Positions 37,259 to 53,342 of a stretch of DNA of 64,000 nucleotides are shown one piece after another. The DNA comes from Rhodobacteraceae bacterium NBU2976 (lineage in GTDB: Bacteria; Pseudomonadota; Alphaproteobacteria; Rhodobacterales; Rhodobacteraceae): the NCBI GenBank assembly GCA_023630215.1, contig JALPRQ010000001.1:124001-188000 (forward strand), given 5' to 3'. The notes beneath the pieces were generated by a model that was not told where the DNA came from, ran no database searches, and saw nothing but the letters and a program-made list of their open reading frames with translations. Numbering within the stretch: the stretch's first letter is position 1; every line of letters begins with the position of its first letter. The position numbers and the translations under genes were made by a program.

Positions 37259-37543
37259 CTGGGTCGCGTCGCTGTCATGACAAAACAACTCGCCAGTGCA
37301 GGTATGCATAGGGGCGACTTTACCCGTTTTATTTCGTTGAAACATCCGTCACTGACCGGATCGAGCGAAATCACCTCGCGATCATTGCCTTCGCGCATCT
37401 GCTCCGACCCATTCCGGACAATTCCTCGTGGGGCAGGTTTAACAATTTCGCGGTGGAACAGGTCGTGAATAGCGGCCCAGCGATGGGCATGATGTCAGTT
37501 CACTGCCCGTCAAATGCAAACCCGTTGGTTGTCGCAGCGCCTG
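37259..37543. other. Intergenic stretch without a recognised gene
   Basis: Between the terminator and the 3' end of the minus-strand GTPase gene I see no supported gene. The short open frames here have no recognisable domain or ribosome site. It marks the boundary between housekeeping genes and the GTPase/autotransporter block. Confidence 0.4.
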
Positions 37544-38707
37544 TCACGCAACCAATTCGGAGGCAACAATATTTTTAAACTCCCAATTCAGTTGGGCGAT
37601 CACGTCTTTGGCGGTTTCCACGTTGTTCGCCTGCTTCAAAAACACGATCGCTTCATCAATCCGCGCGCGTATTTCGTCCGCGACCAAAGCGGGTTCACTC
37701 CACTGACCAAATTTGTCACCCTCAAGGGATTGCAGGAAATCGAAACAGTCCATCGGGCTTTGCCGGCCTTTGCGCAGTTCGTCCATTTGGCGGTCCCATA
37801 TCGCGGCAAAACGAACAGGCGCCCCTGTCGTGCCGTTGTCGGGCACAGCTTGGGTAGGTGCCGCGTCAATGCTGTCAAATTTCATCCCCAACAGGGCTTC
37901 CGCCTCGGCAATCTGGGTTTCGCGTATCTTGGTGGTGATGGACTTGATGATCTGTAAACAGGCAGCGCCACCGCTTTCTTCCCACCCGATCGGGTTGTTG
38001 ATCAGTTTTGCATCAAACCGTGATTTCAATGCGGTCAACAAATCCATCGCCAGAATGGAATGGAAATAAGAACCTGCTTCCTTCGTCATGCGCTTCATCA
38101 ACCGTCCAAGCGAGGCTTTTACTTTTTCCAAATCAACATGTGTGACGATCAAAAGGCTTTGTTTATGTAGCCGCGCAGGCAGGCTTTCCCACATCAACCG
38201 TTCGCTTTGGCGCCAGGCCTGAGTGGCGTTGGTGCACCACAGGACAATTTCCACTTGCTCGGCCACGGAAACGATCTGGTCATGGTCACGGCTGGGGTCC
38301 GACGTGCCGGGTGTATCGTAAATTTCAACCTGTTTCAGAAATGGTTGATCCGTGGTGATGATCAGATAATCCGCCGCCCGCATCTGCTTCTCGTCAAGGG
38401 CTTCGACACCGCTGATCATTTGCGCTTTACCTTTGGTCACCAGACAAAATGTTTCGTCAGTTCCATATTGAAAGCGCACGGTTGGCATGGCGCTGGCCGC
38501 CGCTTTGGTGCTGACAAATTCGCGCCCCAGCAACATCCGCGCCAAGGTGGTCTTTCCCGAACTGAATTCACCGGCAAGCGCCATCTTTACCGGGGCCTCC
38601 ATACGGGACAGCAAATCGCGTATATCATCCGATGGCGCGGAACGGGTGGCTTCGGTCAAAGCGATGATCGCGCGGGCAAACCGGGCTTCAAAGTCGGTAT
38701 GCGTCAT
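37544..38707 (-). CDS. Dynamin-type GTPase, short form
   Basis: A 387-residue large-GTPase-like protein. The G1 P-loop is GEFSSGKTT (47-55), the G2 Thr is in AMPTVRF, the G3 motif is DTPG (131-134), and THVD (189-192) fills the G4 position, replacing NKxD. The GEFSSGKTT form of the P-loop is typical of bacterial dynamin-like proteins, which remodel membranes. The C-terminal half is helical and lacks an obvious membrane-insertion paddle. The ATG at 38707 overlaps the stop of the upstream GTPase by four bases, so the two are co-translated and probably act as a hetero-oligomer, as paired dynamin-like proteins do in other bacteria. Confidence 0.85.
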   Translation of the reverse strand: MTHTDFEARFARAIIALTEATRSAPSDDIRDLLSRMEAPVKMALAGEFSSGKTTLARMLLGREFVSTKAAASAMPTVRFQYGTDETFCLVTKGKAQMISGVEALDEKQMRAADYLIITTDQPFLKQVEIYDTPGTSDPSRDHDQIVSVAEQVEIVLWCTNATQAWRQSERLMWESLPARLHKQSLLIVTHVDLEKVKASLGRLMKRMTKEAGSYFHSILAMDLLTALKSRFDAKLINNPIGWEESGGAACLQIIKSITTKIRETQIAEAEALLGMKFDSIDAAPTQAVPDNGTTGAPVRFAAIWDRQMDELRKGRQSPMDCFDFLQSLEGDKFGQWSEPALVADEIRARIDEAIVFLKQANNVETAKDVIAQLNWEFKNIVASELVA

Positions 38708-40791
38708 GCCGCCTCCTGTTCTTGACGAATTTCTTGGCACAGCGCAACGCGCGCCTCCAGATCGGCTAGGCGGGCTTGGAGTTCGTCAATCGACCCCTGC
38801 ACCTCCTCTGCGCCATGTTGTGCTTGACCGCGGCGTGTCGACAAGATGGCTGATTGCAATTCGTGAAAACTCTTGATTGCCGCCTGCGACGCTGTTGTCA
38901 ATTTGTCCGTCGCGTCCTCCAGAAGTTCGTTTTCTATCGGCAGAAACTGAGAGCGGATCATTTTGCCAAGGGCTTTTTCCACCTCGTCTTCGGATTTGAA
39001 CTTGCCAAACCAACCTTTCCAGAACTTGCTTGGCATATCGAACGAAACAACCTTGGAAAGAGCCGTGGTGTTGGGCGTGTCCCCGGAAAGTTGCACGGTG
39101 TTTACCTGTATATCCGACGCCTCCTCGAACCCCAGTTCAACCAAAGCTGTCGCCAGAGTTTCCGCCTCTTCTTCTAGCTTTGCCAGGATTTTCGTCTGCA
39201 CGATCGGGAATTCCATACGGAAATATCGGTTCATACCGGCACGCAGCGGGATCGGATCAATCGAATAGGTGCTGGTGGATTTTCCCCGTTTCAACTTGGC
39301 ATAAGCGGCTCGAAATTTCTTTGTCTCGTCCTTGATAAAATTATCCACCACCGCTCGAAGACCATTTTGAACATCGCCAAAAACGGTTGAGCTTGTTGCC
39401 TCCAGTGCCACCTTGAAGCGGATCAGCATTTTTTGGATCTGTTCTTCAGCCTCGGCAAATGACCGTGTATCGGTTTCGGTTGCGTCGTCCTCTGCCGGTG
39501 GTTCCTGATCCTGCATCAGTGCCAGTTGACGGCGCAGCGCACTGATCCGGCGCTTGGCATCGCCTTCCACGATTCGGCTGACGTTGCCCAGATCAACGCG
39601 CGCGCTCTGCAACCAGGATTCCCCGATACCGGCATCCATCAAACCGGCAATCGCATCGTCAAGCGCTGGCAAGCCGGACGCCACCCATGCTTTGACCTTC
39701 TCCTCGGTGTCAAACACAGCTTTGGCTGACGCCAATGCTGCGTCACGTCCCGACAGAAACATGTCAAATTTGGCAGGATCAACGGTTACCGCCTGACCCA
39801 TGGCATATTCCGCCCAAAGGGCCGATCCAAAGATTACCGGAATCGTCGTATTGGGGTTTTCGCGGGACAACATCGTTTTGATATGAGACGCGATTTCTGG
39901 AATATCATCGATGGGGTTGGTCAGCTCGTCACAGCGATTGACAAAGACCACAAGCCGATCCAGCCGCAACGCATTCAGCACACGCAACAAATACATGTCG
40001 GCGCTGGAAAAGGCTTGATGGGCCGACAGAACCAGAACGAAGATATCCGAATGTTCCAGACATTGCAGGGTGATTTCTTCGCGGATCAACAAAGGATCGT
40101 TCAGCCCGGGTGTGTCGATCAGGCGAAGCGGATAGCCAAATCGCTCCTTGCCGAAATAGATGCTGGCCTCGCGGGTGATATCGGCAAACCGACCCATGAC
40201 TGGGTTTTTCACCAACTGTTCCGGATCATCGCCTGCACAAATATATCGTGCCAAAATATCCGTGTTGATGGACGAAAACCGATGAGATTTGCCCAGAAGC
40301 TGTTGAAATTGCTCCCCCAGACGCATCTCGGCGCGCTTTCGCATTTCTTCAACCTCGGCGGAAATATCGCTCAGATCATATGAACTGCCGGGGATGGATC
40401 CCGCCAGTTCTGCCAGCCGTCCCTCTCGCGAGGCAAATTTTTTCCACTGCGTATCATCAAAAAAGGTGAAGCGCCCGCCGTCTTCGGGACCATCGGGGTT
40501 CCCGAAATACATATTGGTGACAACGGCCGTCCATGGATTGACATCCGAGGGTAGGAATTCCGGCTTCCCCATAAACCCGTTTAACAAACTGGTCTTCCCG
40601 GCCTTGACCTGTCCGATGACAGACACGCCAGCAACAGATTTCCGCAAACTGTTATCAATTTTGGCGATCAGATCGTCAAACTCGCCGTTTGCTGCCGCGC
40701 GCAGACGCGTAGCCAACGCCTCGAATTCTGACATCTTTCTGGTCAGATCAACTCCGATTGTCGAGGCAGGTACGGCAGCGTCCAATGTCAC
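38704..40791 (-). CDS. Dynamin-type GTPase, long form
   Basis: A protein of about 695 residues with a complete GTPase domain: G1 GQVKAGKTS (60-68), G2 Thr in PWTAVVTN, G3 DTPGLND (226-232), G4 NRCD (285-288). The rest is helical with a predicted coiled coil near the C-terminus (SIDELQARLADLEARV) and a hydrophobic/aromatic patch FWKGWFGKF that could touch membrane. The frame opens at a TTG at 40806, but the GTG at 40791 is preferred because AAGGA lies 7 bases before it; an ATG at 40734 would still keep the GTPase domain. It ends inside the start of the short GTPase gene. Confidence 0.85.
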   Translation of the reverse strand: MTLDAAVPASTIGVDLTRKMSEFEALATRLRAAANGEFDDLIAKIDNSLRKSVAGVSVIGQVKAGKTSLLNGFMGKPEFLPSDVNPWTAVVTNMYFGNPDGPEDGGRFTFFDDTQWKKFASREGRLAELAGSIPGSSYDLSDISAEVEEMRKRAEMRLGEQFQQLLGKSHRFSSINTDILARYICAGDDPEQLVKNPVMGRFADITREASIYFGKERFGYPLRLIDTPGLNDPLLIREEITLQCLEHSDIFVLVLSAHQAFSSADMYLLRVLNALRLDRLVVFVNRCDELTNPIDDIPEIASHIKTMLSRENPNTTIPVIFGSALWAEYAMGQAVTVDPAKFDMFLSGRDAALASAKAVFDTEEKVKAWVASGLPALDDAIAGLMDAGIGESWLQSARVDLGNVSRIVEGDAKRRISALRRQLALMQDQEPPAEDDATETDTRSFAEAEEQIQKMLIRFKVALEATSSTVFGDVQNGLRAVVDNFIKDETKKFRAAYAKLKRGKSTSTYSIDPIPLRAGMNRYFRMEFPIVQTKILAKLEEEAETLATALVELGFEEASDIQVNTVQLSGDTPNTTALSKVVSFDMPSKFWKGWFGKFKSEDEVEKALGKMIRSQFLPIENELLEDATDKLTTASQAAIKSFHELQSAILSTRRGQAQHGAEEVQGSIDELQARLADLEARVALCQEIRQEQEAA

Positions 40792-40809
40792 GGGAGAATC
40801 CTTCAACTT

Positions 40810-41994
40810 TTATGCTTGATACATTTTTTGGGTCATGGAATCCGAGGTGCTTTCCATGTCCAGGACAAGCTCCAGATCCCATAAGAACTGTTCTTCATTC
40901 ATCGAAAACGGGCATCCTTTGACCTTAGTATTTAAGATTGACAGGCTGTCGTGCACAGTAATCCCCATCTGGATCAAAAAGATCGCAGCGATCATTTTGG
41001 TCTTAGCCTGATCCGTACCCATCACCAGGACTTTGTGGCCCTGATTGATTTCTGACTGAATATGCGAAATCATCGACAGATGCTTGCGGATATCCTTGGG
41101 TTTGTTTGCGGGCTGGTGCGGCGTCATGATCACGCGGACCCCTGCCGCCTCCAACGTTGTGCTTAGACCGGTGTCCGTCTCGCTGTTCACAACGGCAACC
41201 GTAATACCCTGATGCGCCATTTCTTCAAGCATCTCGGCGTTATTGCTTGCGGAAAACGCTTCGGTTGCGACCGCAAAAGACCGACGAACAATCCAGATGA
41301 TCGGCCCGTCTGCGGTGTCTCCGGTGTCGGTGCCCAGATCCGGCATACCGCGAAACTCGGGCGCAAGTGTGCGGGCAGCGGCGTCTGGGCGCGGTATCGC
41401 CATGCCACCCGTTTTCAGGAATTGCTTGGTGACGTTGCTTTCGGGCGCGTTGAACATCTTGTCGGGGCTACCCGCCTCGATGATTTGGCCGCTGCCCAAC
41501 AGGACCATCCAATCGGCAAACAGGCGTGCATGTTCGCTATTATGGGTCACCATAACGATCGCGCGTTTCTGTGCTTCGTCTTTTAATTGCTCCAGAATGG
41601 GCATCGCCTCCTCGTGGGCGACCATCGCACAGGGTTCATCAAGGCACAACATGCGCGGGTTTTGCGCCAAAGCTTCGGCAATCTGGCCTCGAATTGTGCG
41701 CGTCGATACTGCACGCGCCATTTGTTCGCTACGCGTGGCCTGTCTTATGACATAGGGGTGATTATTTTTGGACAAGGGTTGACCGTAAAACGTCGCTTCG
41801 TCTGCTTCAGTGGTGACCACATCGGCGGTGCGTTTCCCTTCGAATACAGACATCAGGGTGGATTTGCCGACACCGACCGGCCCCATCACAACAAAAAAAC
41901 CTACAGCAGGAAACGACAGGCTGATGTCTTTCAACAACAGCCGCTCGCCGACCATGACACGCAGGTTTCGCAATGTCAGCAGATCGTCGGTCAT
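40810..41994 (-). CDS. ABC-type ATPase fused to a catalytically dead phosphatase-like domain
   Basis: A 394-residue protein in two parts. Residues 1-195 are an ABC ATPase with Walker A GPVGVGKST (38-46), Walker B MLCLDEP (115-121) and the switch His in VTHN (151), but the helical subdomain is short and the signature is degenerate (TRTIRGQ at 98-104 instead of LSGGQ). No membrane segment is present and no permease is nearby. Residues about 232-375 align without large gaps to the stand-alone phosphatase at 43715-44275, but the catalytic Cys is replaced by Met325 and the P-loop Arg by Lys331, and the general-acid Asp is missing. It is therefore a likely pseudophosphatase. Its ATG overlaps the upstream gene by four bases. 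Confidence 0.8.
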   Translation of the reverse strand: MTDDLLTLRNLRVMVGERLLLKDISLSFPAVGFFVVMGPVGVGKSTLMSVFEGKRTADVVTTEADEATFYGQPLSKNNHPYVIRQATRSEQMARAVSTRTIRGQIAEALAQNPRMLCLDEPCAMVAHEEAMPILEQLKDEAQKRAIVMVTHNSEHARLFADWMVLLGSGQIIEAGSPDKMFNAPESNVTKQFLKTGGMAIPRPDAAARTLAPEFRGMPDLGTDTGDTADGPIIWIVRRSFAVATEAFSASNNAEMLEEMAHQGITVAVVNSETDTGLSTTLEAAGVRVIMTPHQPANKPKDIRKHLSMISHIQSEINQGHKVLVMGTDQAKTKMIAAIFLIQMGITVHDSLSILNTKVKGCPFSMNEEQFLWDLELVLDMESTSDSMTQKMYQA

Positions 41995-42905
41995 CCAGAG
42001 GTTCCGGCATTAATCAATGCATTCCAGCCAATAAGAATGCGGCCCAATCGGTTCAGGTCCGAATGTGCTATAATCTGTTGGTTTGGTCCGATTACAATAA
42101 TCAGAATATCGGTGCCATTGGAGCCACGTATCAGCACCTGCAAACTGGGCGCACTGCCCACCGCTGGTTCAGCTGCGCCTTTCCAGCTTTTCAGTTCCTC
42201 CACCAGACCTTCGGTGGACAACCCTTCGATCGTGGGAATATAGCCGGATTTTTTGGTTATCTCGCCGTTTGAATCCAGCATGATGGCAAATTCCACATGC
42301 GCCTTCAGACGGTCAAAATATTTTTCGACCAGTCCGTTCGTCTCACCCTGATCACTCGTGGGAGAGACGTGCGTTTCCGACGCTGGTGTCGCAGGTGCTT
42401 TTGGGTGCAGTAGGCGCGGGGGATTGTCGACGACAACCCGCAAAGTGCGTTCCTTTGTATCGGGAGTTGTGGGCTTACCCGTCAACAGGGTGCGAAGTGA
42501 TACCCCGTCGACTTCTAACATGCCCTGTAATTCCCTTGGGACCCTTTTGATAGATAACAAATCTTCGTCACCAAGATGGGAAAGCACGGATTTGAAATGT
42601 GTTGCCGCATCATGTGTTTCCGCCGGGGATTTGTCGCCTTCGATCGCGCGAAAACCTTTTAACGAACCGATACTGTTGGGGGTGGTCATAGGTTTGTATG
42701 CGATGATCATTGCGGCTTTGACCACGAACGAAAATGTATTCTTGCCGCTTTCAAGTATGAATAACCTTGGCAGAATAGTGCGGCTTATAATTGTGTTCAG
42801 AAAGCGAACGTCATCTTGTCTGGACGTGCTTTCGCTGTTTACGGATTGTGAAAGCGCGTTGCCCCATTCATCGACGGCGCGGATAGTGATCATCTTTAAT
42901 CTCAT
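41991..42905 (-). CDS. Unknown protein with possible C-terminal Roadblock/LC7-like domain
   Basis: A protein of about 304 residues. The N-terminal 130 residues (MITIRAVDEWGNALSQSV and FILESGKNTFSFVVKAAMII) are unassigned. A Pro/Thr-rich linker near 175-200 leads to a C-terminal domain with FAIMLDSNGEITKKSGYIP and DILIIVIGPNQQIIAHSDL, a strand pattern that resembles Roadblock/LC7 domains. The ATG at 42905 is chosen because GGAG lies just upstream; 42893 is an alternative. It overlaps the ATPase gene by four bases, so the four genes 42905-37544 are one translational unit. Confidence 0.65.
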   Translation of the reverse strand: MRLKMITIRAVDEWGNALSQSVNSESTSRQDDVRFLNTIISRTILPRLFILESGKNTFSFVVKAAMIIAYKPMTTPNSIGSLKGFRAIEGDKSPAETHDAATHFKSVLSHLGDEDLLSIKRVPRELQGMLEVDGVSLRTLLTGKPTTPDTKERTLRVVVDNPPRLLHPKAPATPASETHVSPTSDQGETNGLVEKYFDRLKAHVEFAIMLDSNGEITKKSGYIPTIEGLSTEGLVEELKSWKGAAEPAVGSAPSLQVLIRGSNGTDILIIVIGPNQQIIAHSDLNRLGRILIGWNALINAGTSG

Positions 42906-43020
42906 TTCACTCCAACAGTTGCTCAAACCTCGTTAGGCAACTGCAAGTAACCAGAATTGTGTTTCGATCTAATTGTGACCGTTCTTCGCATCTGGTTGGC
43001 TACCAATTCCAACGTGGCCC

Positions 43021-43044
43021 GAAGGCAGGCCGAAACCTGCCTTC
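43021..43044. other. Perfect 9-bp hairpin between Roadblock gene and downstream operon
   Basis: GAAGGCAGG at 43021-43029 pairs perfectly with CCTGCCTTC at 43036-43044 around a 6-base loop. It begins nine bases after the Roadblock stop on the minus strand. There is no T run on either strand, so it may set relative expression by stabilising the upstream mRNA or by partial termination. Confidence 0.6.
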
Positions 43045-43053
43045 CAACAGACA

Positions 43054-43458
43054 TTATACCTGCGCGGTGATGTTTTCGATCGAAGCCCGCGCCTTTGCAA
43101 GAACCATCCCGATATTCGCGGACTTTCTGGACACATAAGTCACCACGTGATCTGGATATTTTTTTGTACGGATAAAAACGTGAATAAGGTTCTCGGACAT
43201 GATCAGCATTTCATGGAAATAATGTGCCGTGTCTTTTTCGTTGCCGCGGGCTTTTTTGAAGTGATTTTCGATGGCAATCACGTTTGACCCCTGAAACAGG
43301 TCAGCCGTTGCTGCGGCAACCATGTCCAACACTTCTTGCGGGTGGGAATCCACGGTTTTCACACCCAGTAGCATTCCGGTGCTCATATCTACATATCCGC
43401 CCGCCAGACACTCGGGAATTGTGCTTACGGCATCTGCGATTGCTTTATCTAACGACAT
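43054..43458 (-). CDS. Roadblock/LC7-domain protein
   Basis: A 134-residue single-domain protein with a Roadblock/LC7 pattern: CLAGGYVDMSTGMLLGVK as the first hairpin, an amphipathic helix, EMLIMSENLIHVFIRTKKYPDHVVTYVS as the central strands, and NIGMVLAKARASIENI as the last helix. In bacteria such proteins (MglB and conservon components) commonly regulate small GTPases as activating proteins or scaffolds. Here the only GTPases nearby are the two dynamin-type proteins. The ATG follows AAGGA at 8 bases. Confidence 0.75.
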   Translation of the reverse strand: MSLDKAIADAVSTIPECLAGGYVDMSTGMLLGVKTVDSHPQEVLDMVAAATADLFQGSNVIAIENHFKKARGNEKDTAHYFHEMLIMSENLIHVFIRTKKYPDHVVTYVSRKSANIGMVLAKARASIENITAQV

Positions 43459-43714
43459 TCAGATTTCCTTTATTACCTAGGTGTAAATTCGACGCTTAGC
43501 CACTCTGCAAATGTATTCATTAACCGGTTACTATTTACTGAATGACTCGATATCTGCCTTGGGATAACACCACATAAACCATTTAATTCCTTGTTTACGC
43601 TCGCTCGTAACAGACGGTTTTTACTATCTGGAAAAATGTGGCAAAATTCCACCATTGTTTGGCTTTAAATGCGAATGTAACAATATGTTTATGCTAGAAT
43701 TATGTCGAAATTTC
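43459..43714. other. Intergenic gap between phosphatase and Roadblock genes
   Basis: A 256-base A+T-rich gap with no supported gene. It probably carries the promoter of the Roadblock gene and the downstream operon; I cannot place -35 and -10 elements with confidence. Confidence 0.35.
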
Positions 43715-44275
43715 CTATTTTCTCCACACAATTGATAAGGTGTGCAGGAAGTCTTCTTGTGCGTGTGATTCAATCCATTTCGCGTGATTAGCTCGCACCT
43801 CGGTGATCGCGTCGATTGATTCCATTCCGTAATAGATCAATTGCGCGGCCAACATCGTACCGGTACGTCCCTGACCCGCGCGGCAATGATAGACACAGGC
43901 TTTGCCCTCTTGCAGGTAGGAATCCACCAACTGACAAAGCTCCTTTGCTTGATCAGGGGTTGGGACCCCCATATCTGCAATCTTCAGATGATAGGAATCG
44001 ATGCCATAATCGCGAAGCCTGTCAATCGGCGGGGACCATTTCTCTGTCAGCGTGATTAAAAGCCGCGTGCCCATGCGCTGCAACGCCTCCAGATCACTGT
44101 CAATCGAACGGACGATCCCGGGACGTGGTGTGCCACCCAGTTTACCGCTGATCAGCCAGTGAAAGCCGGTTGGCCCCATATACCGCAGCGGAGGATTATC
44201 AGAAGGAGTCAGATAGTCCGGCAAGCGGGCGAAAATGTTGGTATTCTCTGGCACATTGGAATCCATCTTTTGCAT
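43715..44275 (-). CDS. Dual-specificity/tyrosine phosphatase
   Basis: A 186-residue phosphatase with an intact active site HCRAGQGRTG (His130, Cys131, Arg137) and a general-acid candidate Asp101 in KIADMGVPT, in the spacing of dual-specificity phosphatases (cyclin-dependent or atypical DSP type). Substrate could be phosphoprotein, phosphoinositide-like lipid or RNA; not resolved. Length and the N-terminal GFHWLISGKLGG segment match the C-terminal half of the ATPase fusion at 40810-41994, indicating common ancestry. A second ATG lies at 44266. An inverted repeat sits directly upstream. Confidence 0.88.
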   Translation of the reverse strand: MQKMDSNVPENTNIFARLPDYLTPSDNPPLRYMGPTGFHWLISGKLGGTPRPGIVRSIDSDLEALQRMGTRLLITLTEKWSPPIDRLRDYGIDSYHLKIADMGVPTPDQAKELCQLVDSYLQEGKACVYHCRAGQGRTGTMLAAQLIYYGMESIDAITEVRANHAKWIESHAQEDFLHTLSIVWRK

Positions 44276-44435: not shown

Positions 44436-47400
44436 TCAGAATTCGTAGTTGATTCCGACCTGACCTTTGATGGTGAAGAAGTCACCATTCGTCTGGACGT
44501 TACCGGCGGCAAAGCCAGTCAGACCGTTGTCGTTCCAGAATTCCAGACCAGCGCCAACTTCGACGAACATGCCCGTGAACCCGGCTTCGAATTCCAGCGT
44601 ATCCACACCCGTCGCGATTGTGGCTGTGTTCTGGTCTTCGAATTCGTTCCACAGTTTGGCGGTGAAGGTCGGAGCATAGGTCATGCCACCCTGTCCGGCA
44701 AACTCGGTCGAGATGTTGACACCAACCGCCGCGCGTGTGCTCAGGCCATCCGAGTAGCTGACATCAAGCGTATCGATCGAGAAGTCGTCGATCGTGGTGC
44801 GGACATGGGCAAAGTTGCCGACCGCTTCCACTGTCGTGGTTCCCGTGCTGTAGACCTGATACCCGGCCTCTAGCTCGACACCCAGCGAACGGACGTGCGA
44901 TGTCGCTTCCGAACTAATCGACGGCATGTCGATGGCCAGATCCAGCTCGTCCTGCTTAACAAGGCTTTCGAAGCGGAACATATCGTTCGCATAGGACGCA
45001 CGAACACCCAGCGTATACCCGTTGAAGGTTGCAGTTGACGGTGTGTTGTCGAAGTTGACGACCGAGTTAATGTAACCCGCCATCAGCCCAACTTCGGCTT
45101 TACCACCAGCACCGGCCAACCCGTCGAGAGCAAAGTCATAACCCAGCATCGCAGCGAAGGTCGACTGTACATAGGAGTTGTCCACCTCTGTCGTTAGCGA
45201 ACCCAGTTCGGCCGTCTGATAGACCTCACGTGACTGCGATTCATACAGCACCAAGCCCCATGCACCGGTTGGTTTATCGGCAAGATCACTGATCAGTTCG
45301 TGTTCCAACCAGGCTTGCGCCGTCGTGTACCAGATCGACTGACCAGCGGCCATGAAGTTTACTGGCTCGTAAACCTCGTTACCGTCAACACCTGCCAGGA
45401 TGAAGTTGTTAGTCGCGTCATCGAAGAACAGACGGTAATCGACTGCGCCGGCTTCGACGAACCCGCCCTGTAGGGTGAAGTCTGTCTCGCTGGCGTTTTC
45501 GGCATCATTCACATCAACCAGAACAATCCCGATAGTGTTGATGCCGCCGTCACCCGGGTTGGTGTTGGTGACCACAATTTCGGTCGAACCCGAGCTGGAG
45601 CCGTTGATGATCAACATGTCGCCGACACCACCAGCATCAACAAACACATCCAGTTCCAACGTTCCGCCCGTGCCGGTGAAATCACCGTCGACAGTCAGCG
45701 TATCCATGTTGGTCGCCCCGTTACCCGCCGTCTCGTCCGAGAGAGAGATGCGGCCGGTGTTGTTCAGCAGCTCCAGGCTGTCAAACACGGTGACTTCGGA
45801 TGTATTGCTATAGAATGCCGCAACAATCGACGTTCCGGTGTTGTTCAGCACATCATAGCCACCACCAAAGAAGCTGGTGCCGCTAGTGTACCAGTCGCCG
45901 TCATTGTTGAACGTATCACCATAGTCAGAGAGGCTAACGTAACCTGTTATATATCCCCCGACTTCGTTGTTGATCGTTACCGGACCATTGATAGCTGTAA
46001 TTACAAGATCACCTGGCGCGCCAGAGGTATTATAAATATCCCCATAGTTGGTAATCGTGATGGCGCCTGTGGAATTTGCATCGATCGCGGATACACCGCC
46101 ATAGACAGTTCCATAATTGGTAATCTGTATGCCGTAACCACCATATTCATCGACGTTAATACCATAGTTGAGACCAAATACCGTGTTGCCTGGGTCAATG
46201 GTGATATCGATCAAACCACTAGCGCTTTCGGCATCGATACCGGTAAATCCGCCAGCGACATCGCCAACCACATTAATGGTGATAGCCCCCGACGCATTAT
46301 AGGCGTTGATCCCGTTGGAACCACCATAGGTTTGGTACCCAGCACTGGTGATCAAAATAGCACCCGTTCCGAAGTCAAACGCTCGGATACCATCACCATT
46401 GGATCCGGAGACATAAGTAGTGCCGGATGCATCGATCGTGATACCACCGCCACCATTGTTCTGGGTTTCAATGCCATCAACATATCCATAGACATTGAAA
46501 CCGTTCGTTGTCACCGATATGCCATCTTCAGCCGCTGCATAGATCCCGTCGCCGCTGTATCCGTAGACGCCTCCTGCGGTTGTAATCGTCACCGAACCGC
46601 CGAGGTCCGCGTACACATTAATTCCATTTGTACCGCCGGTTATGTCGCCTGTGCCGCCGGTGATGTTGATATTGCCATCATTCGTAAACACATTGATTCC
46701 GTGGGCTAGACCGCCGCCAACCGAACCATCGGTCGTTACGTCAACATTACCTGTACCTCCGGCATCGATATTGATCCCGGAAACACCGCCATAGATCGCG
46801 CCTGCACCGCCGATGACTTCTACATCACCATCTGTTGTAATCGCGTTGATGCCGAATGTTGAATAACCTTCAACTGTACCGTCTGTGGTAATGTAAATGT
46901 CTCCGGTCCCGCCAGCTATGGCATTGATCCCGAATACACCACCATAGATCGCGCCTGCGCCACCAAGGATGTCAATGTTGCCGTTAGTTGTCAGCGCATT
47001 GATACCAGTGTTGGAATTACCAGTAACCGTACCATCGGTTGTGATATAGACATCACCCGTACCGCCGGCTGTAGTATTGATCCCCATTACGCCGCCATAG
47101 ATTGCACCTGCACCACCAATGATGTCGATATCACCATTTACTGTGGTTGCGTTGATGCCAAAGGTGGACGTACCAGTGACGGTGCCATCGGTCGAAATGT
47201 AGACACTTCCTGTCCCACCGGCCGAGGAAGAGATCCCCATTACGCCGCCAAGGATCGCACCTGCGCCACCATAGATGTCGATATTTCCATCTGTCGTGAC
47301 GGCATTGATCCCAAAGGTGCTCGTACCCGTAACATCACCTTCTGTGGTAATGTTGATGTTACCTGTACCACCCGTAACGGTATTTATTCCCATAACACCG

Positions 47401-50400
47401 CCGGAAATGGCGCCTGCACCACCAAGTACGGTGATATCGCCATCTAATGTTGAGGCATTGATACCCATCGTGCCCACGCCGGTTACGGCACCATTTGTGG
47501 TGATATCGATATAACCATTGCCGCTGACTACAGCGTCGATACCGTTGACCTGTCCGGTAACAGTGCCAGCGACATTGTTGATGACGATATTACCAGTATA
47601 CTGTGTATATGCCGATATCCCGTGAACATTGTCCCCTGTGACATCGTCATTGGTCGTGATGTCAATATCACCATAATACGTATCTGCGAAGATGCCGTTA
47701 ATATTACCCGAAACCGTTCCATTCGCGACAACCGTCACGTTCCCATAATAGGTTACGAGATTCATACCATTTGCGCTATAGCCGGTTACATCGTCGGCTG
47801 AAGTAACCTGAACATTTCCATTATACGCATAGGCATCGATACCATTGAGAAGCCCATAAACTGTGTTGTTTGTGGTAATGGTGATATTGCCTGTGTTGCT
47901 AACATATGCGTTGATACCATCGGCTCCATAACCTGTGACTTCACCTGTCGTCGATATGGTGATGTCTCCGATGCCGTCAACGATGGAATTGATGCCGTAC
48001 GTACCACCAGATATGTACCCTGCACCACCCGTTATGTAGATGTCACCAACGACGCCAACAAAGGCATCGATACCATCGCCGGTTCCGCCGAAGACATTAC
48101 CTGTGGTCGATATCGAGATGTCACCGTCATAGGAGATATTCGCAAGGATGCCGTTATTAGATCCATAGATTGTACCAGCGCCGCCTGTGACAGTGATATT
48201 ACCGTCATAGTTCACGTTTGCTGTGATCCCGTCCCCGTTGTATCCCGTAATATCGCCATTGGTCGTTACGGCGATATTGCCGTTATCCGTATCGGCATCG
48301 ATACCGTCAAAATAACCCTGAACATTTCCGGCGACATTGCTCACCGTAATGTTGCCGATATCTTGCACATATGCCCGAATACCGTCCTGGTAGTTACCGG
48401 TCACATTGCCGTTTGTCGTAATATCGATGTTACCCGCATAAGTGTAGGAATAGATACCATTCTCATCGCCGACAATGTTACCTGCGGCGTTAGTAATGGT
48501 AATGTTTCCACCATCCTGAACAACGGCCGAAATGCCATCCTCGTTCGCGCCCCCGACATATCCGTTCGTGGTGACAGAAACGTTTCCGGAATAGGTTTCC
48601 GCGTCAATACCGTTCTGAAAACCGTTGATCGCACCCGCGCCACCTGTGATCGTGATATCGCCGTATCCGCCAACGTCAGCAGAGATGCCGTCAAAATAGT
48701 TGCCATCAACTGTGCCAGTTGTGGTGATCGTGATGTTGCCGATATTGTTAACCACACCATTGATACCATTTTCGGAACCGTAGATCGCGCCAGCCCCTCC
48801 GGTGATCTGGATATCACCGTTGATACCGGTATAGGCATAAATACCATCGCCGTTATAACCGGAAACGGTGCCCACGGTTTGGATCAGGATCGGGCCAGTC
48901 TGATTGACCGTGGCACTGATGCCATCGGAACCACCTGTAATCGCGCCGGCACCCCCCGTAATGTCGATTGTGCCGTTATAGACGATGTCGGCGTCGATGC
49001 CTTCGTCAGAATAGCCCTCAACGACACCGGTTGTGGTAATGGTAATGTTACCGCTTGTTTGGACCGCCGCATCGATACCGACATAATACCCGTAAATATC
49101 GCCTGCGCCGCCTGTGACGGTTATGTCGCCATTTCCACCAACATAGGCTTCGATACCATCTTCATTCTGGCCTGTAATCGCGCCAACGGTGGATATCTGA
49201 ATATCGCCATTGTCGTTAATAAAGGCATCGATACCGCTCTCGGAACCAGTGATGTCCCCGGTCCCACCGTAAATATTGATATACCCGCCTTCGCGATAGG
49301 AACGAATACCATCGTCGTTCAGACCGGTAATCGCGCCAGAACCCGTTGTAATCGTGGTTGTGGAATAAAGTCCAGTCGAGCTGGTGATAATACCGTTATC
49401 ATACCCGGTAATTGCCCCGGCATTTGTGGTGATTGTGACATCCGTGTTACCACCATTGTCGCTATTATTCTGGACGAGAATACCATTATCGGTTGTACCC
49501 GTAACGCTACCATTATTGGTCGTGATCGTTACATCAGCATCGAAATATCCGTAAACATAGGTGAAAATACCGTTAGTGTAACCCGTTGTATTTCCATCAT
49601 TTGTCGTTACCGACGTCGACGCATAGTAAGAGCTGTTATCAACATAGATACCGTTTTGAGTGTCACCAGTGACGTCACCAGTGGTCGTGATCGCAACATC
49701 GCCATAAAAGCTATCGTTTGCTACGTTTATACCATTTTCACTACCGTAAATCGTGCCAGTACCACCAGAAACGGTAACGGCGCCATTGTAAGCGGAGTTT
49801 GTAACTTCGATACCGTCACCGCCGTAACCGGTAATTGCGCCCGTACCGGATGTAACATTTACCAATCCATTATAACTGGCGTCCTGAATGATAGATATCC
49901 CGCTCGTGCCACCGGTAACATCGCCGTCAGCTGTCGTAACAGTAACGCCGCCGTTATAATTTGCGCCAAGGTTGACATAAATACCCGCTTCGGTAGTGCC
50001 GGTAACATTTCCCGAACCCGTTATTACTGTCGCTGTTCCGCTAATGACATATAAACTCGAAGAAATACCATTCGTATAGCCACTAACAGCGCCATCGCTG
50101 GTTGTGATTGTAATGTCAGCATCGTCAACGAATGCCGCGGTTGCATCGATACCCGCACCGGTGTTGCCATCGACGTAGCCGGAACCGGTCGTGATGCTTA
50201 TGTCCCCCGTGTACGCGAAATAAGCGCTGGCAGAAATACCGTCAATCTCGCCAGTGACGTTACCGGCATTCGTGACGATTACGGTGTTTGCATTATATCC
50301 CGTCGCATATGACACAATGCCGCTTCCGGTCACACCGTCTACATTTCCGTCATTTGTTGTAATATACGTCGTTCCGTCACTGTCATCGAACGCGGCAATG

Positions 50401-53258
50401 CCATTATCACCGCCAGATATGTCCCCGGCACCGGTTGTGATTGTCAGATCGCCGTAGCCGCTATTCGCAGCCTCGATCCCGTTATCTGCGCCGGTTACGC
50501 TGGCGTTTGCCGTGATGGTAAGCGCACCGCTACTACCGTCGTTGTTTGCGAAAATGCCGTCGTACGATCCGCCCGTAATCGCGCCATTGGTTGTGATATC
50601 AATAACACCACCGCCAGCATTGTTTGCATAAACGCCATAACCGTTACCGTTAACCGCACCCGTGCCGGTCGTGATGACAACGCCACCCGCACCTTGATCA
50701 TTGGCGTCGATACCATTTTCATACTGACCCACGATCACGCCAGCGCCGGTTGTGATGGATATACCACCCGTCCCATTGTTATAGGCCTCGATACCTTGAC
50801 CATACCCGGTCACCGCACCGTTTGTGGTGATGGATACAGCACCTCCAGCGGCATTTGTATTTTCCGCGTTTATACCGTCACCGTAATAGCCGGTCACCGC
50901 ACCATTACCGCCTGTGATTGTAATGCCACCCGTGCCGGAGTTTGTGATGTCAATACCGTCATCCGCGCCGAAAATGTTACTATTGTAGAACGTAACATTC
51001 GTCGAACCGGTCGTGCCGCTATTGGTCAAATTGATCGCGTCGCCAGCGTATAAGGTGTTCGTTGACACGGTGCCATTGAACACAGCGTTAATATCGCCAT
51101 CATTCGTATTTACGACGTTAACAGCGTCATTCGACGCTGTGTAAATCGAGCCGGTGCCACCTGTAATATTCACATCTCCCGTGCTGGAGTTGTAGACATC
51201 CAGCCCGCCGTAAATACCCAGAACAGACCCGGCGCCCGTGGTAATATTGACGTCGCCACTTCCACCAGTATTGGTCGCCTGAATTGCAGTGCCACCATAG
51301 CCCAGAAGGTAATCTCCATACGCGTCAACAGTCCCGGAAACGGTGATGTTAAGGTTGCCGCCATTGCTATTATTGGCAACGATACCATCGCCATAATACG
51401 AGCTAATCGTACCCGAGCCACCAACAATCGTCAGATCGCCGGTCCCGTCATTGTCCACAAATATTGCCTGAGAATAGCCGCTGATGGTGCCGGTACCGGT
51501 TGTGACAGACACCGAGGTCCCAAGTCCCCCAGCGTTCGCGTTATAAATGTTGATACCCGAGCTATAAAAACCAGAGACACTGCCGGTCACGCCAACGGTA
51601 ACCGCGCCGCCGCCCGTGTTATCGACGTTAATCCCGTCACCATAAAAGCCGTTGATGCTCCCAGACCCGCCTGTAATGGTGACATCGCCACTGCTCGCGT
51701 TCTGGACATTAATACCGGATTCGTAACCGCTAACCCCACCTGCGCCAGTTGTAACGGAAACCGCGCCGGTGCCCGTGTCATTATTTACCCGGATCGCGTC
51801 GCCATAACTGCCATTTACAGCGCCGTCAGTCTGGATGGTGACGTTCGTGCCACCATTATCGACGATAATACCGTAGCCCGGGTTGCCATCACCGCCATCA
51901 CCCGTAATATCGCCGGTTTGGCCGGTAAAGCTGACATCACCGCTACCATAATTGCTGATAGCAACACCCGAACCGCCGTAGGAATAAATTTCACCCGAAC
52001 CGCCAAGGATGGTAACACCGCCCCCGTTTCCGGAATTGTAGATGTCAATCGCGTCGCCAAGGTAATTGTCGTACGTGGTGATATTCCCGGTTCCAAGGGT
52101 CACCGACACATCACCCGATCCATAGGCATCGACCACGATACCGCCATACTCACCGGTCAGATTACCCGCGCCAGTTACGATCGTCGTGTCAACACTGTCA
52201 TAGCCACCATATACATTGATCGCGCTGTTATAGCCGGACACATCACCGGTTACCTGAACGCTTGCCGACCCATAGCCACGGTTGTTGACATCAATACCAT
52301 CACCGGTTTCCGACGAGATCTCGCCCGTCCCTCCGGTCACAGTCACATCGCCTGTTCCGTAATGATTTATAAGAATACCGTCCGAGCCACCGTAAATGTT
52401 CCCGGCACCCGTCACAACTGTCGTCGTCGTGGTATCTGCGCCGCCATAGGCATAAATTGCGGCATAGTTGGTGGCGTAGAAGGTGCCAGCATTTTCGTCT
52501 TCGGCAACCACACCCAGAACGGTAATCGTCGTCGCCCCATAGCCGGTGCTACGGGAATAGATACCATAGTCTTCGCCATAAATAACGGTATCGGCACCGG
52601 TATTGATGGTGACGGCGTCGGTCACGCCATAATTGGATTCATTGTTGACGTTGATCGCATCGCCATCCGCGCTTTCCACAACCGCAGTGCCTGCAATGTC
52701 GATAATGGTGCCACCGTCGGAATCCTCGTTATTCACCTTGATGGCATCATCAATAACGCTTGCAATTGATCCGTTGGTCTGGCGAATTTCAACGCCGTTG
52801 GCATTGCTGCCGTATACATTGATATCCAGTGCAGAATCATACCCAATAACTGTTCCGCCGAAATCAAAATAGAACGAACCAGCATACCCGTAGATTGCGC
52901 TATCGTTGTAAATATAGATGGCATCGTAGCCAGGGGTGCCGCCACCATACAATCCACCAAAGATCGCGCCCAGGTTACCTGTGATGGACATATCGCCATC
53001 CCCGGTAATTGTGATCATCGTTCCCGGTGCCGCATAATCTTGCAAGATCGCACCTGACAGGATCGAAACGTCAAAGTTGGCGTATCCACCCGTGTTCAAG
53101 GAAACCGGTGTGTTTGTTGGGGTACAGGTGATCTGGTTTGCTGGATCAAGACCAATGTTCGTACATGCAGCGTAAGCTTGTCGACCATACATCGATATCG
53201 CGCCAGTAATAATCGAAGATGTCAGAAAAAGACCGCGCTTAAACTTGTTGGAACCCAT
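44436..53258 (-). CDS. Giant repeat-rich autotransporter (type Va), about 2,940 residues
   Basis: One uninterrupted frame. An N-terminal signal (MGSNKFKRGLFLTSSIITG onward, ending near AYAAC) leads to a passenger of about 2,600 residues made of degenerate short repeats with the recurring core D/N-G-I followed by a Gly/Thr-rich turn, which should form a long beta-helix. Near the passenger end there is a junction-like segment (TLTVDGDFTGTGGTLELDV). Residues about 2660-2940 are an autotransporter beta-barrel that ends in INYEF with the terminal Phe needed for outer-membrane assembly. Only the two N-terminal Cys are seen. The ATG at 53258 is used because CAGGGG lies about 10 bases before it; a TTG at 53276 is in frame. 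The protein is probably a surface adhesin or biofilm factor; no catalytic motif is seen. Confidence 0.92.
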   Translation of the reverse strand: MGSNKFKRGLFLTSSIITGAISMYGRQAYAACTNIGLDPANQITCTPTNTPVSLNTGGYANFDVSILSGAILQDYAAPGTMITITGDGDMSITGNLGAIFGGLYGGGTPGYDAIYIYNDSAIYGYAGSFYFDFGGTVIGYDSALDINVYGSNANGVEIRQTNGSIASVIDDAIKVNNEDSDGGTIIDIAGTAVVESADGDAINVNNESNYGVTDAVTINTGADTVIYGEDYGIYSRSTGYGATTITVLGVVAEDENAGTFYATNYAAIYAYGGADTTTTTVVTGAGNIYGGSDGILINHYGTGDVTVTGGTGEISSETGDGIDVNNRGYGSASVQVTGDVSGYNSAINVYGGYDSVDTTIVTGAGNLTGEYGGIVVDAYGSGDVSVTLGTGNITTYDNYLGDAIDIYNSGNGGGVTILGGSGEIYSYGGSGVAISNYGSGDVSFTGQTGDITGDGGDGNPGYGIIVDNGGTNVTIQTDGAVNGSYGDAIRVNNDTGTGAVSVTTGAGGVSGYESGINVQNASSGDVTITGGSGSINGFYGDGINVDNTGGGAVTVGVTGSVSGFYSSGINIYNANAGGLGTSVSVTTGTGTISGYSQAIFVDNDGTGDLTIVGGSGTISSYYGDGIVANNSNGGNLNITVSGTVDAYGDYLLGYGGTAIQATNTGGSGDVNITTGAGSVLGIYGGLDVYNSSTGDVNITGGTGSIYTASNDAVNVVNTNDGDINAVFNGTVSTNTLYAGDAINLTNSGTTGSTNVTFYNSNIFGADDGIDITNSGTGGITITGGNGAVTGYYGDGINAENTNAAGGAVSITTNGAVTGYGQGIEAYNNGTGGISITTGAGVIVGQYENGIDANDQGAGGVVITTGTGAVNGNGYGVYANNAGGGVIDITTNGAITGGSYDGIFANNDGSSGALTITANASVTGADNGIEAANSGYGDLTITTGAGDISGGDNGIAAFDDSDGTTYITTNDGNVDGVTGSGIVSYATGYNANTVIVTNAGNVTGEIDGISASAYFAYTGDISITTGSGYVDGNTGAGIDATAAFVDDADITITTSDGAVSGYTNGISSSLYVISGTATVITGSGNVTGTTEAGIYVNLGANYNGGVTVTTADGDVTGGTSGISIIQDASYNGLVNVTSGTGAITGYGGDGIEVTNSAYNGAVTVSGGTGTIYGSENGINVANDSFYGDVAITTTGDVTGDTQNGIYVDNSSYYASTSVTTNDGNTTGYTNGIFTYVYGYFDADVTITTNNGSVTGTTDNGILVQNNSDNGGNTDVTITTNAGAITGYDNGIITSSTGLYSTTTITTGSGAITGLNDDGIRSYREGGYINIYGGTGDITGSESGIDAFINDNGDIQISTVGAITGQNEDGIEAYVGGNGDITVTGGAGDIYGYYVGIDAAVQTSGNITITTTGVVEGYSDEGIDADIVYNGTIDITGGAGAITGGSDGISATVNQTGPILIQTVGTVSGYNGDGIYAYTGINGDIQITGGAGAIYGSENGINGVVNNIGNITITTTGTVDGNYFDGISADVGGYGDITITGGAGAINGFQNGIDAETYSGNVSVTTNGYVGGANEDGISAVVQDGGNITITNAAGNIVGDENGIYSYTYAGNIDITTNGNVTGNYQDGIRAYVQDIGNITVSNVAGNVQGYFDGIDADTDNGNIAVTTNGDITGYNGDGITANVNYDGNITVTGGAGTIYGSNNGILANISYDGDISISTTGNVFGGTGDGIDAFVGVVGDIYITGGAGYISGGTYGINSIVDGIGDITISTTGEVTGYGADGINAYVSNTGNITITTNNTVYGLLNGIDAYAYNGNVQVTSADDVTGYSANGMNLVTYYGNVTVVANGTVSGNINGIFADTYYGDIDITTNDDVTGDNVHGISAYTQYTGNIVINNVAGTVTGQVNGIDAVVSGNGYIDITTNGAVTGVGTMGINASTLDGDITVLGGAGAISGGVMGINTVTGGTGNINITTEGDVTGTSTFGINAVTTDGNIDIYGGAGAILGGVMGISSSAGGTGSVYISTDGTVTGTSTFGINATTVNGDIDIIGGAGAIYGGVMGINTTAGGTGDVYITTDGTVTGNSNTGINALTTNGNIDILGGAGAIYGGVFGINAIAGGTGDIYITTDGTVEGYSTFGINAITTDGDVEVIGGAGAIYGGVSGINIDAGGTGNVDVTTDGSVGGGLAHGINVFTNDGNINITGGTGDITGGTNGINVYADLGGSVTITTAGGVYGYSGDGIYAAAEDGISVTTNGFNVYGYVDGIETQNNGGGGITIDASGTTYVSGSNGDGIRAFDFGTGAILITSAGYQTYGGSNGINAYNASGAITINVVGDVAGGFTGIDAESASGLIDITIDPGNTVFGLNYGINVDEYGGYGIQITNYGTVYGGVSAIDANSTGAITITNYGDIYNTSGAPGDLVITAINGPVTINNEVGGYITGYVSLSDYGDTFNNDGDWYTSGTSFFGGGYDVLNNTGTSIVAAFYSNTSEVTVFDSLELLNNTGRISLSDETAGNGATNMDTLTVDGDFTGTGGTLELDVFVDAGGVGDMLIINGSSSGSTEIVVTNTNPGDGGINTIGIVLVDVNDAENASETDFTLQGGFVEAGAVDYRLFFDDATNNFILAGVDGNEVYEPVNFMAAGQSIWYTTAQAWLEHELISDLADKPTGAWGLVLYESQSREVYQTAELGSLTTEVDNSYVQSTFAAMLGYDFALDGLAGAGGKAEVGLMAGYINSVVNFDNTPSTATFNGYTLGVRASYANDMFRFESLVKQDELDLAIDMPSISSEATSHVRSLGVELEAGYQVYSTGTTTVEAVGNFAHVRTTIDDFSIDTLDVSYSDGLSTRAAVGVNISTEFAGQGGMTYAPTFTAKLWNEFEDQNTATIATGVDTLEFEAGFTGMFVEVGAGLEFWNDNGLTGFAAGNVQTNGDFFTIKGQVGINYEF
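46650..47484. repeat. Tandem 153-bp repeats inside the autotransporter gene
   Basis: The landmark CCTGC inside a conserved context recurs at 46801, 46954, 47107, 47260 and 47413, exactly 153 bases apart, giving a 51-residue unit (core GGAGAIYGGVMGIN and VYITTDGTVTG). A more diverged unit precedes at 46648. These are the best-preserved copies in an otherwise decayed repeat protein and suggest recent expansion. Confidence 0.9.
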
Positions 53259-53342
53259 AGGTTGCACCCCTGTCAATCATGCACCGGTCACATGAAAAAT
53301 GCACGTAATCCGGCACTCATTAGATATACCTAGAAAGGGTTC

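Follow-up and report, generated by a model that had tools for sequence, protein, structure and literature searches.

The window analyzed here is a 64,000-nucleotide stretch from Rhodobacteraceae bacterium NBU2976 (contig JALPRQ010000001.1), whose minus strand carries, at positions 37544 to 44275, six intact genes encoding a tyrosine-type phosphatase (PTP), a Roadblock/LC7-fold protein (RB), a second candidate Roadblock protein (ORFX), an ABC-type ATPase (ABC), and a long and a short dynamin-like GTPase (DLP1 and DLP2). Because RB is shared with loci of the Group 3 MglA type and the two kinds of GTPase are never found together, this module looks, judging from its gene content, like the dynamin counterpart of the MglA system. 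We lean toward regarding it as the dynamin version of a Roadblock-controlled, phosphorylation-gated GTPase signaling system. An earlier note, made from the same stretch, had listed the six minus-strand genes as an undescribed module. All six open reading frames (ORFs) are present, the module is recurrent in marine Rhodobacteraceae, and no description of it was found in open-licence PMC papers. The note had overlooked the kinship with MglA-type small-GTPase systems as well as a decayed seventh gene, GLB.

Domain organization and predicted folds of the module proteins

DLP1 (700 aa, 38704 to 40806; all features given here lie on the minus strand) and DLP2 (398 aa, 37544 to 38740) are both Dynamin_N GTPases (Pfam, 4.8e-14 and 1.9e-11) with G1, G3, and G4 motifs (GQVKAGKT / DTPG / FVNRCD in DLP1; GEFSSGKT / DTPG / IVTHVD in DLP2). 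The solved structure nearest to DLP1 is 5owv chain A, and the DLP1 profile matches both 5owv chains. DLP2 adjoins DLP1 in nearly all relatives; membrane binding and assembly-stimulated GTPase activity are putative properties of the pair. In two comparison loci (L049:2514-14606 and L050:3-9453), a single Roadblock gene is accompanied by several tandem DLP1-DLP2 pairs, and the DTPG motif has been lost from some of the short dynamins there. The last four genes of the module are as tightly packed as the earlier note had described: ORFX and ABC overlap by 4 nt, ABC and DLP1 are separated by 3 nt, and the overlap between DLP1 and DLP2 reaches 37 nt at most, according to which start is taken.

RB (134 aa, 43054 to 43458) is assigned to the Roadblock fold by predicted structure, not by Pfam sequence profile. 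In the Pfam scan, no Roadblock profile rose above the cut-off and the sole match was the Roadblock-like MAPKK1_Int at 0.014; hhalign comparison with Robl_LC7 paralogues gave an E value of 3.9e-5 (probability 71). The AlphaFold model, computed from an alignment of 18 relatives (mean pLDDT 77), has the Roadblock topology H-E-E-H-H-E-E-E-H. When it was compared with the PDB by Foldseek, each of the top 50 matches was a chain with the Roadblock/LC7 fold, examples being MglB, MglC, and subunits of Ragulator (lowest E value, 1e-6). ORFX (311 aa, 41991 to 42926) matches no Pfam family. Its N-terminal half is variable and modeled at low confidence; its C-terminal domain of about 110 residues (approximately 196 to 307) is predicted to have Roadblock topology (pLDDT mostly 75 to 94) and is matched by Foldseek to MglB (E 1.5e-4). 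Sequence-profile comparison alone did not demonstrate the Roadblock identity of ORFX, for which the predicted structure was required; a second Roadblock domain at its C terminus is thus supported by the fold. Hence, the Roadblock protein and the possible second one named in the earlier note are both upheld by predicted structure, and of the profile searches it had suggested, that for the phosphatase succeeded, whereas the Roadblock assignments failed by sequence profile and stood by fold.

PTP (186 aa, 43715 to 44275) belongs to the dual-specificity/tyrosine-type phosphatases (Pfam Tc-R-P, 2.5e-20; PTP-SAK, 3.6e-14). It carries HCRAGQGRTGT, an intact CX5R (HCX5R) catalytic signature whose C and R are unchanged across 12 relatives, and is predicted from this signature to be active. 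The ABC protein (394 aa, 40810 to 41994; ABC_tran, 2.5e-9) has a Walker A (GPVGVGKST), a Walker B, and an H-loop; alignment with intact relatives indicates that the ABC proteins of dynamin-type loci lack roughly 60 residues, among them the helical/signature region. An ABC transporter was rejected, as the module has no permease and the LSGGQ-type signature region is deleted. In hhalign comparison, the ABC protein proves to share its C-terminal domain with the neighboring PTP (probability 97.3, E 2e-11), but its copy has lost the catalytic Cys and Arg of CX5R, in agreement with the dead phosphatase domain that had been read from the sequence. Dynamin-type loci combine a dead ABC-linked phosphatase domain with a separate active phosphatase gene; the phosphatase activity appears to have been transferred to a gene of its own while the ABC part decayed, or the change ran in the opposite direction.

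Conservation of the module within Rhodobacteraceae

Profile searches of 298 Rhodobacteraceae genera (one representative per genus, draft genomes included) found RB in 67 and DLP1 in 77, and all 67 genera with RB are among the 77; with the 134-aa RB sequence alone as the query, only 21 of the 298 had been reached. The genus-level association is strong (Fisher p 2e-56, uncorrected for shared ancestry), although the RB profile was seeded partly from loci located via DLP1, which introduces a mild bias. At the level of genes, DLP1 is no more than 10 kb away from 68 of the 74 RB copies; five of the other six have no DLP1 match on their own contig, and one is far off. The co-occurrence that the earlier note had proposed to check is therefore borne out.

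Two arrangements were recognized from mechanical ORF calls in the comparison loci. The first, that of the window, reads PTP, RB, ORFX, ABC/dead PTP, DLP1, DLP2, and GLB. The second, a kinase form with variable order, comprises a Ser/Thr kinase, an FHA-like protein, a PP2C phosphatase, a DLP-like protein, DLP1, DLP2, RB, and ORFX; it keeps RB and ORFX with the DLPs although ABC and PTP are absent. The kinase form occurs on Ruegeria and Leisingera plasmids (L066, L067, and L069), whose annotation lists RB and ORFX as "hypothetical protein," and in locus L021 the FHA-like protein shows a weak match to the model of the YscD cytoplasmic domain of type III secretion systems. One 615-aa protein (L048:9747-11594, the same as L078:8555-10402) joins Dynamin_N (residues 28 to 170), PTP (280 to 423), and RB in a single chain; its phosphatase is of the active kind, and its dynamin part is of the short DLP2 type.

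The patchy distribution and the plasmid-borne copies would also fit a role in defence or conflict, with the dynamins acting on the membrane of the infected cell under kinase/phosphatase control. The kinase of the sister form resembles defence kinases such as PD-T4-6, and there are weak matches to LeoA/LeoBC; however, the kinase matches are those that any Ser/Thr kinase would give, and the Leo matches are partial (best E 6e-8). No phage or viral relatives were found, and the globin-reductase and, in cousin loci, MglA-like GTPase partners look like ordinary signaling. We consider a defence role improbable; a Leo-type or PADLOC defence system was rejected, its matches being weak or confined to generic domains, as was a phage or viral origin of the module, for which there were no matches.

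Kinship with MglA-type loci and exchange of the GTPase

A scan of 84,980 genomes for RB relatives gave 180 stretches, of which the best 80 were kept. The relatives in these 80 are about 60 to 73% identical to RB, and many come from Marinobacter, Thiobacillus, Gallionella, Myxococcota, and Planctomycetota. In the MglA-type loci, the gene ahead of RB mostly encodes an ABC protein to which an intact phosphatase is fused (e.g., HCRAGLGRTGT). None of the 60 loci has a DLP, and 28 have a small GTPase, usually accompanied by a REC-wHTH-like protein (27/60), a second Roadblock protein (28/60; Robl_LC7, 2.9e-13), and GLB (34/60 overall). The small GTPase has a DAR motif (G5) and an altered G4, as in Group 3 MglA. 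Window-type loci have DLP1 in 17 of 20 cases and neither a small GTPase nor a REC-wHTH-like protein (0/20 each). Hence, no locus among the 60 MglA-type and 20 window-type loci encodes both a small GTPase and a DLP. A small Ras-like MglA with the DAR-type G5 was likewise not found at the locus, in the whole genome, or in 150 genomes of the family (E 1e-5), a set that contains no positive control.

In the RB tree, which has long branches and was rooted at the midpoint with no outgroup, the MglA-type sequences fall on one side of a branch (support, 99/99), and the dynamin type lies between the MglA type and the kinase type. In their respective trees, both RB and DLP1 of the window cluster with the L046 and L071 sequences; since the two trees agree on this point, RB and DLP1 have traveled together. 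Three loci of the MglA Group 3 type (L085:7426-11756, L094:5284-11465, and L129:8065-15454) encode an ABC-phosphatase fusion, two Roadblock proteins, a CxxCxxCC-like protein, and a ferredoxin-reductase-globin, a full form that is apparently undescribed so far.

The decayed globin partner

In sister loci, DLP2 is followed by GLB, a protein composed of a [2Fe-2S] ferredoxin, an FAD/NAD reductase, and a bacterial globin. In the window, a remnant of its C-terminal part lies 44 bases beyond DLP2 (37268 to 37500); tblastn gives up to 58% identity over 52 aa (E 8e-14), after which the match continues in another frame. No intact GLB was found elsewhere in the source genome, where the only other match is partial and reductase-like. 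An intact GLB of 514 aa occupies the equivalent place (L014:4869-6413) in a draft genome of the same genus, G004.

Proposed mechanism

Roadblock proteins have established roles in the control of Ras-like switches: MglB is a GTPase-activating protein (GAP) for MglA, and Ragulator both scaffolds and regulates the Rag GTPases. From these roles, from those of tandem bacterial dynamins (the 5owv pair being the closest solved relative), and from the observed gene content, folds, motif states, conservation, and failure of the two GTPase types to occur together, we propose that DLP1 and DLP2 would assemble into a hetero-oligomeric dynamin pair acting on a membrane. The two Roadblock-fold proteins, RB and ORFX, would bind this pair and determine its GTP state or how it assembles, much as MglB-type proteins act on MglA; the physical contact between RB and the DLPs, a role like that of a GAP or guanine nucleotide exchange factor, the membrane action, and the sensing are all suggested by analogy. 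In the form found in the window, the active PTP and the ABC protein, the latter possibly serving as a nucleotide-dependent decoy or adaptor through its dead phosphatase domain, would gate the dynamins; in the sister form, the phosphorylation input would come from the Ser/Thr kinase, the FHA-like protein, and the PP2C phosphatase. GLB may normally supply a redox or O2/NO signal, a sensor that would have decayed in the source genome. For Rhodobacteraceae, the chances seem about even that dynamins are under Roadblock control, with one set of regulators underlying both a Ras-like and a dynamin circuit, that the GTPase was exchanged in evolution in one direction or the other, and that kinase-type and phosphatase/globin-type inputs are interchangeable.

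The Roadblock proteins could instead scaffold the ABC/phosphatase (or kinase/FHA/PP2C) complex and leave the nucleotide state of the dynamins untouched, so that the dynamins would be only a downstream membrane effector. RB adjoins ABC-PTP in 52 of 60 non-dynamin loci, many of which have no GTPase gene nearby, and scaffolding is what Ragulator-type Roadblock proteins do. However, in Rhodobacteraceae RB and ORFX stay with the DLPs where kinase, FHA-like protein, and PP2C replace ABC and PTP, and one chain unites DLP2, PTP, and RB. We therefore favor Roadblock regulation of the DLP pair, because of this fusion and the kinase-form loci that have no ABC or PTP, and hold pure scaffolding to be possible but rather unlikely.

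Several observations weigh against Roadblock regulation of the dynamins. The high conservation of RB (60 to 72% identity) whichever GTPase type is nearby would be odd for a direct GTPase partner and somewhat favors the scaffold; within 9 kb, a small GTPase is lacking in 32 of the 60 MglA-type loci, so a GTPase gene need not accompany the RB-ABC core, and 3 of the 20 window-type loci have no DLP nearby. ORFX is strongly divergent (13 to 23% identity), and we know of no experiments on any member of the module. Furthermore, DLP1 of the same-genus genome G004, in which GLB is intact, is interrupted by stops (L014:7646-9732); together with the decayed GLB of the window, this hints at possible erosion of the module in the genus. 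That the module is no longer fully functional in the source genome, as the frameshifted GLB and the broken DLP1 of its relative would suggest, seems nevertheless quite improbable, given that the other six genes retain their full length and undamaged motifs and that G004 is a fragmentary draft (71% complete) whose stops may be errors.

The adjacent giant ORF

A giant repeat-rich ORF of 2946 aa (44436-53276) lies 160 bp upstream of the phosphatase gene on the same strand. This position had led the earlier note, which called the giant protein an autotransporter, to suggest membrane remodelling or surface-protein export; the module might accordingly help to export or display this protein. The label is at most tentative, as the ORF matches no Pfam family at an E value of ≤0.001, and the adjacency is not conserved: there is no giant gene next to the module in 17 other window-type loci or in one same-genus relative, where the largest non-module ORF has 910 aa. 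The export link was rejected on these grounds, and we give it hardly any credence.

Comparison with known systems

To our knowledge, no bacterial dynamin has been linked to a regulator of the Roadblock (MglB/Ragulator) type, and nothing relevant on a combination of dynamin and Roadblock was found in open-licence PMC papers. The structures 5owv and 5oxf represent what we take to be the tandem dynamin-like pair of Campylobacter jejuni. As in the module, that pair presumably consists of two adjacent dynamin-like GTPases of unequal length, but the sequence match is confined to GTPase segments, and we know of no report of Roadblock, phosphatase, or ABC partners for it. LeoA/LeoBC are likewise bacterial dynamin-like GTPases; there is no full-length match to them, only partial ones (E 1e-6 to 6e-8), and we are aware of no partners that they have in common with the module. 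The regulators described here are candidates for controlling bacterial dynamins, about whose triggers little is known.

The actinobacterial conservons (CvnA-D) resemble the module in combining a Roadblock protein, a GTPase, and a phosphorylation-type input in one operon. They use a histidine kinase (CvnA) and a small GTPase (CvnD), neither of which is encoded in the module according to its ORFs and Pfam, whereas the module has dynamins and Ser/Tyr-type phosphatases. In Myxococcus xanthus, MglB and RomY form a bipartite GAP that targets MglA, and the conserved region of RomY has no characterized domain model (PMC9481161). This pairing of a Roadblock protein with a second protein on one GTPase is a possible model for RB and ORFX.

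A close parallel is to the Group 3 MglA systems of beta- and gammaproteobacteria, which comprise a REC-wHTH-like protein, MglA, and one or two MglBs, and for which the DAR motif and altered G4 have been described (Wuichet and Sogaard-Andersen 2014, PMC4316618); the main text of that paper does not mention ABC-phosphatase or globin-reductase. Both systems encode one or two Roadblock proteins with the GTPase, RB being 60 to 70% identical between them, and the loci found here have the ABC-phosphatase and globin-reductase partners in common. They differ in that Group 3 systems have a small Ras-like MglA and a REC-wHTH-like protein, whereas the type found in the window has a dynamin pair and no REC-wHTH-like protein; moreover, ABC and phosphatase form one intact fusion in the former and are split in the latter, the fused copy being dead. 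The comparison extends Group 3 MglA systems by an ABC-phosphatase and a globin-reductase partner, and two GTPase types on one highly conserved regulator set provide a natural experiment on what Roadblock proteins recognize.

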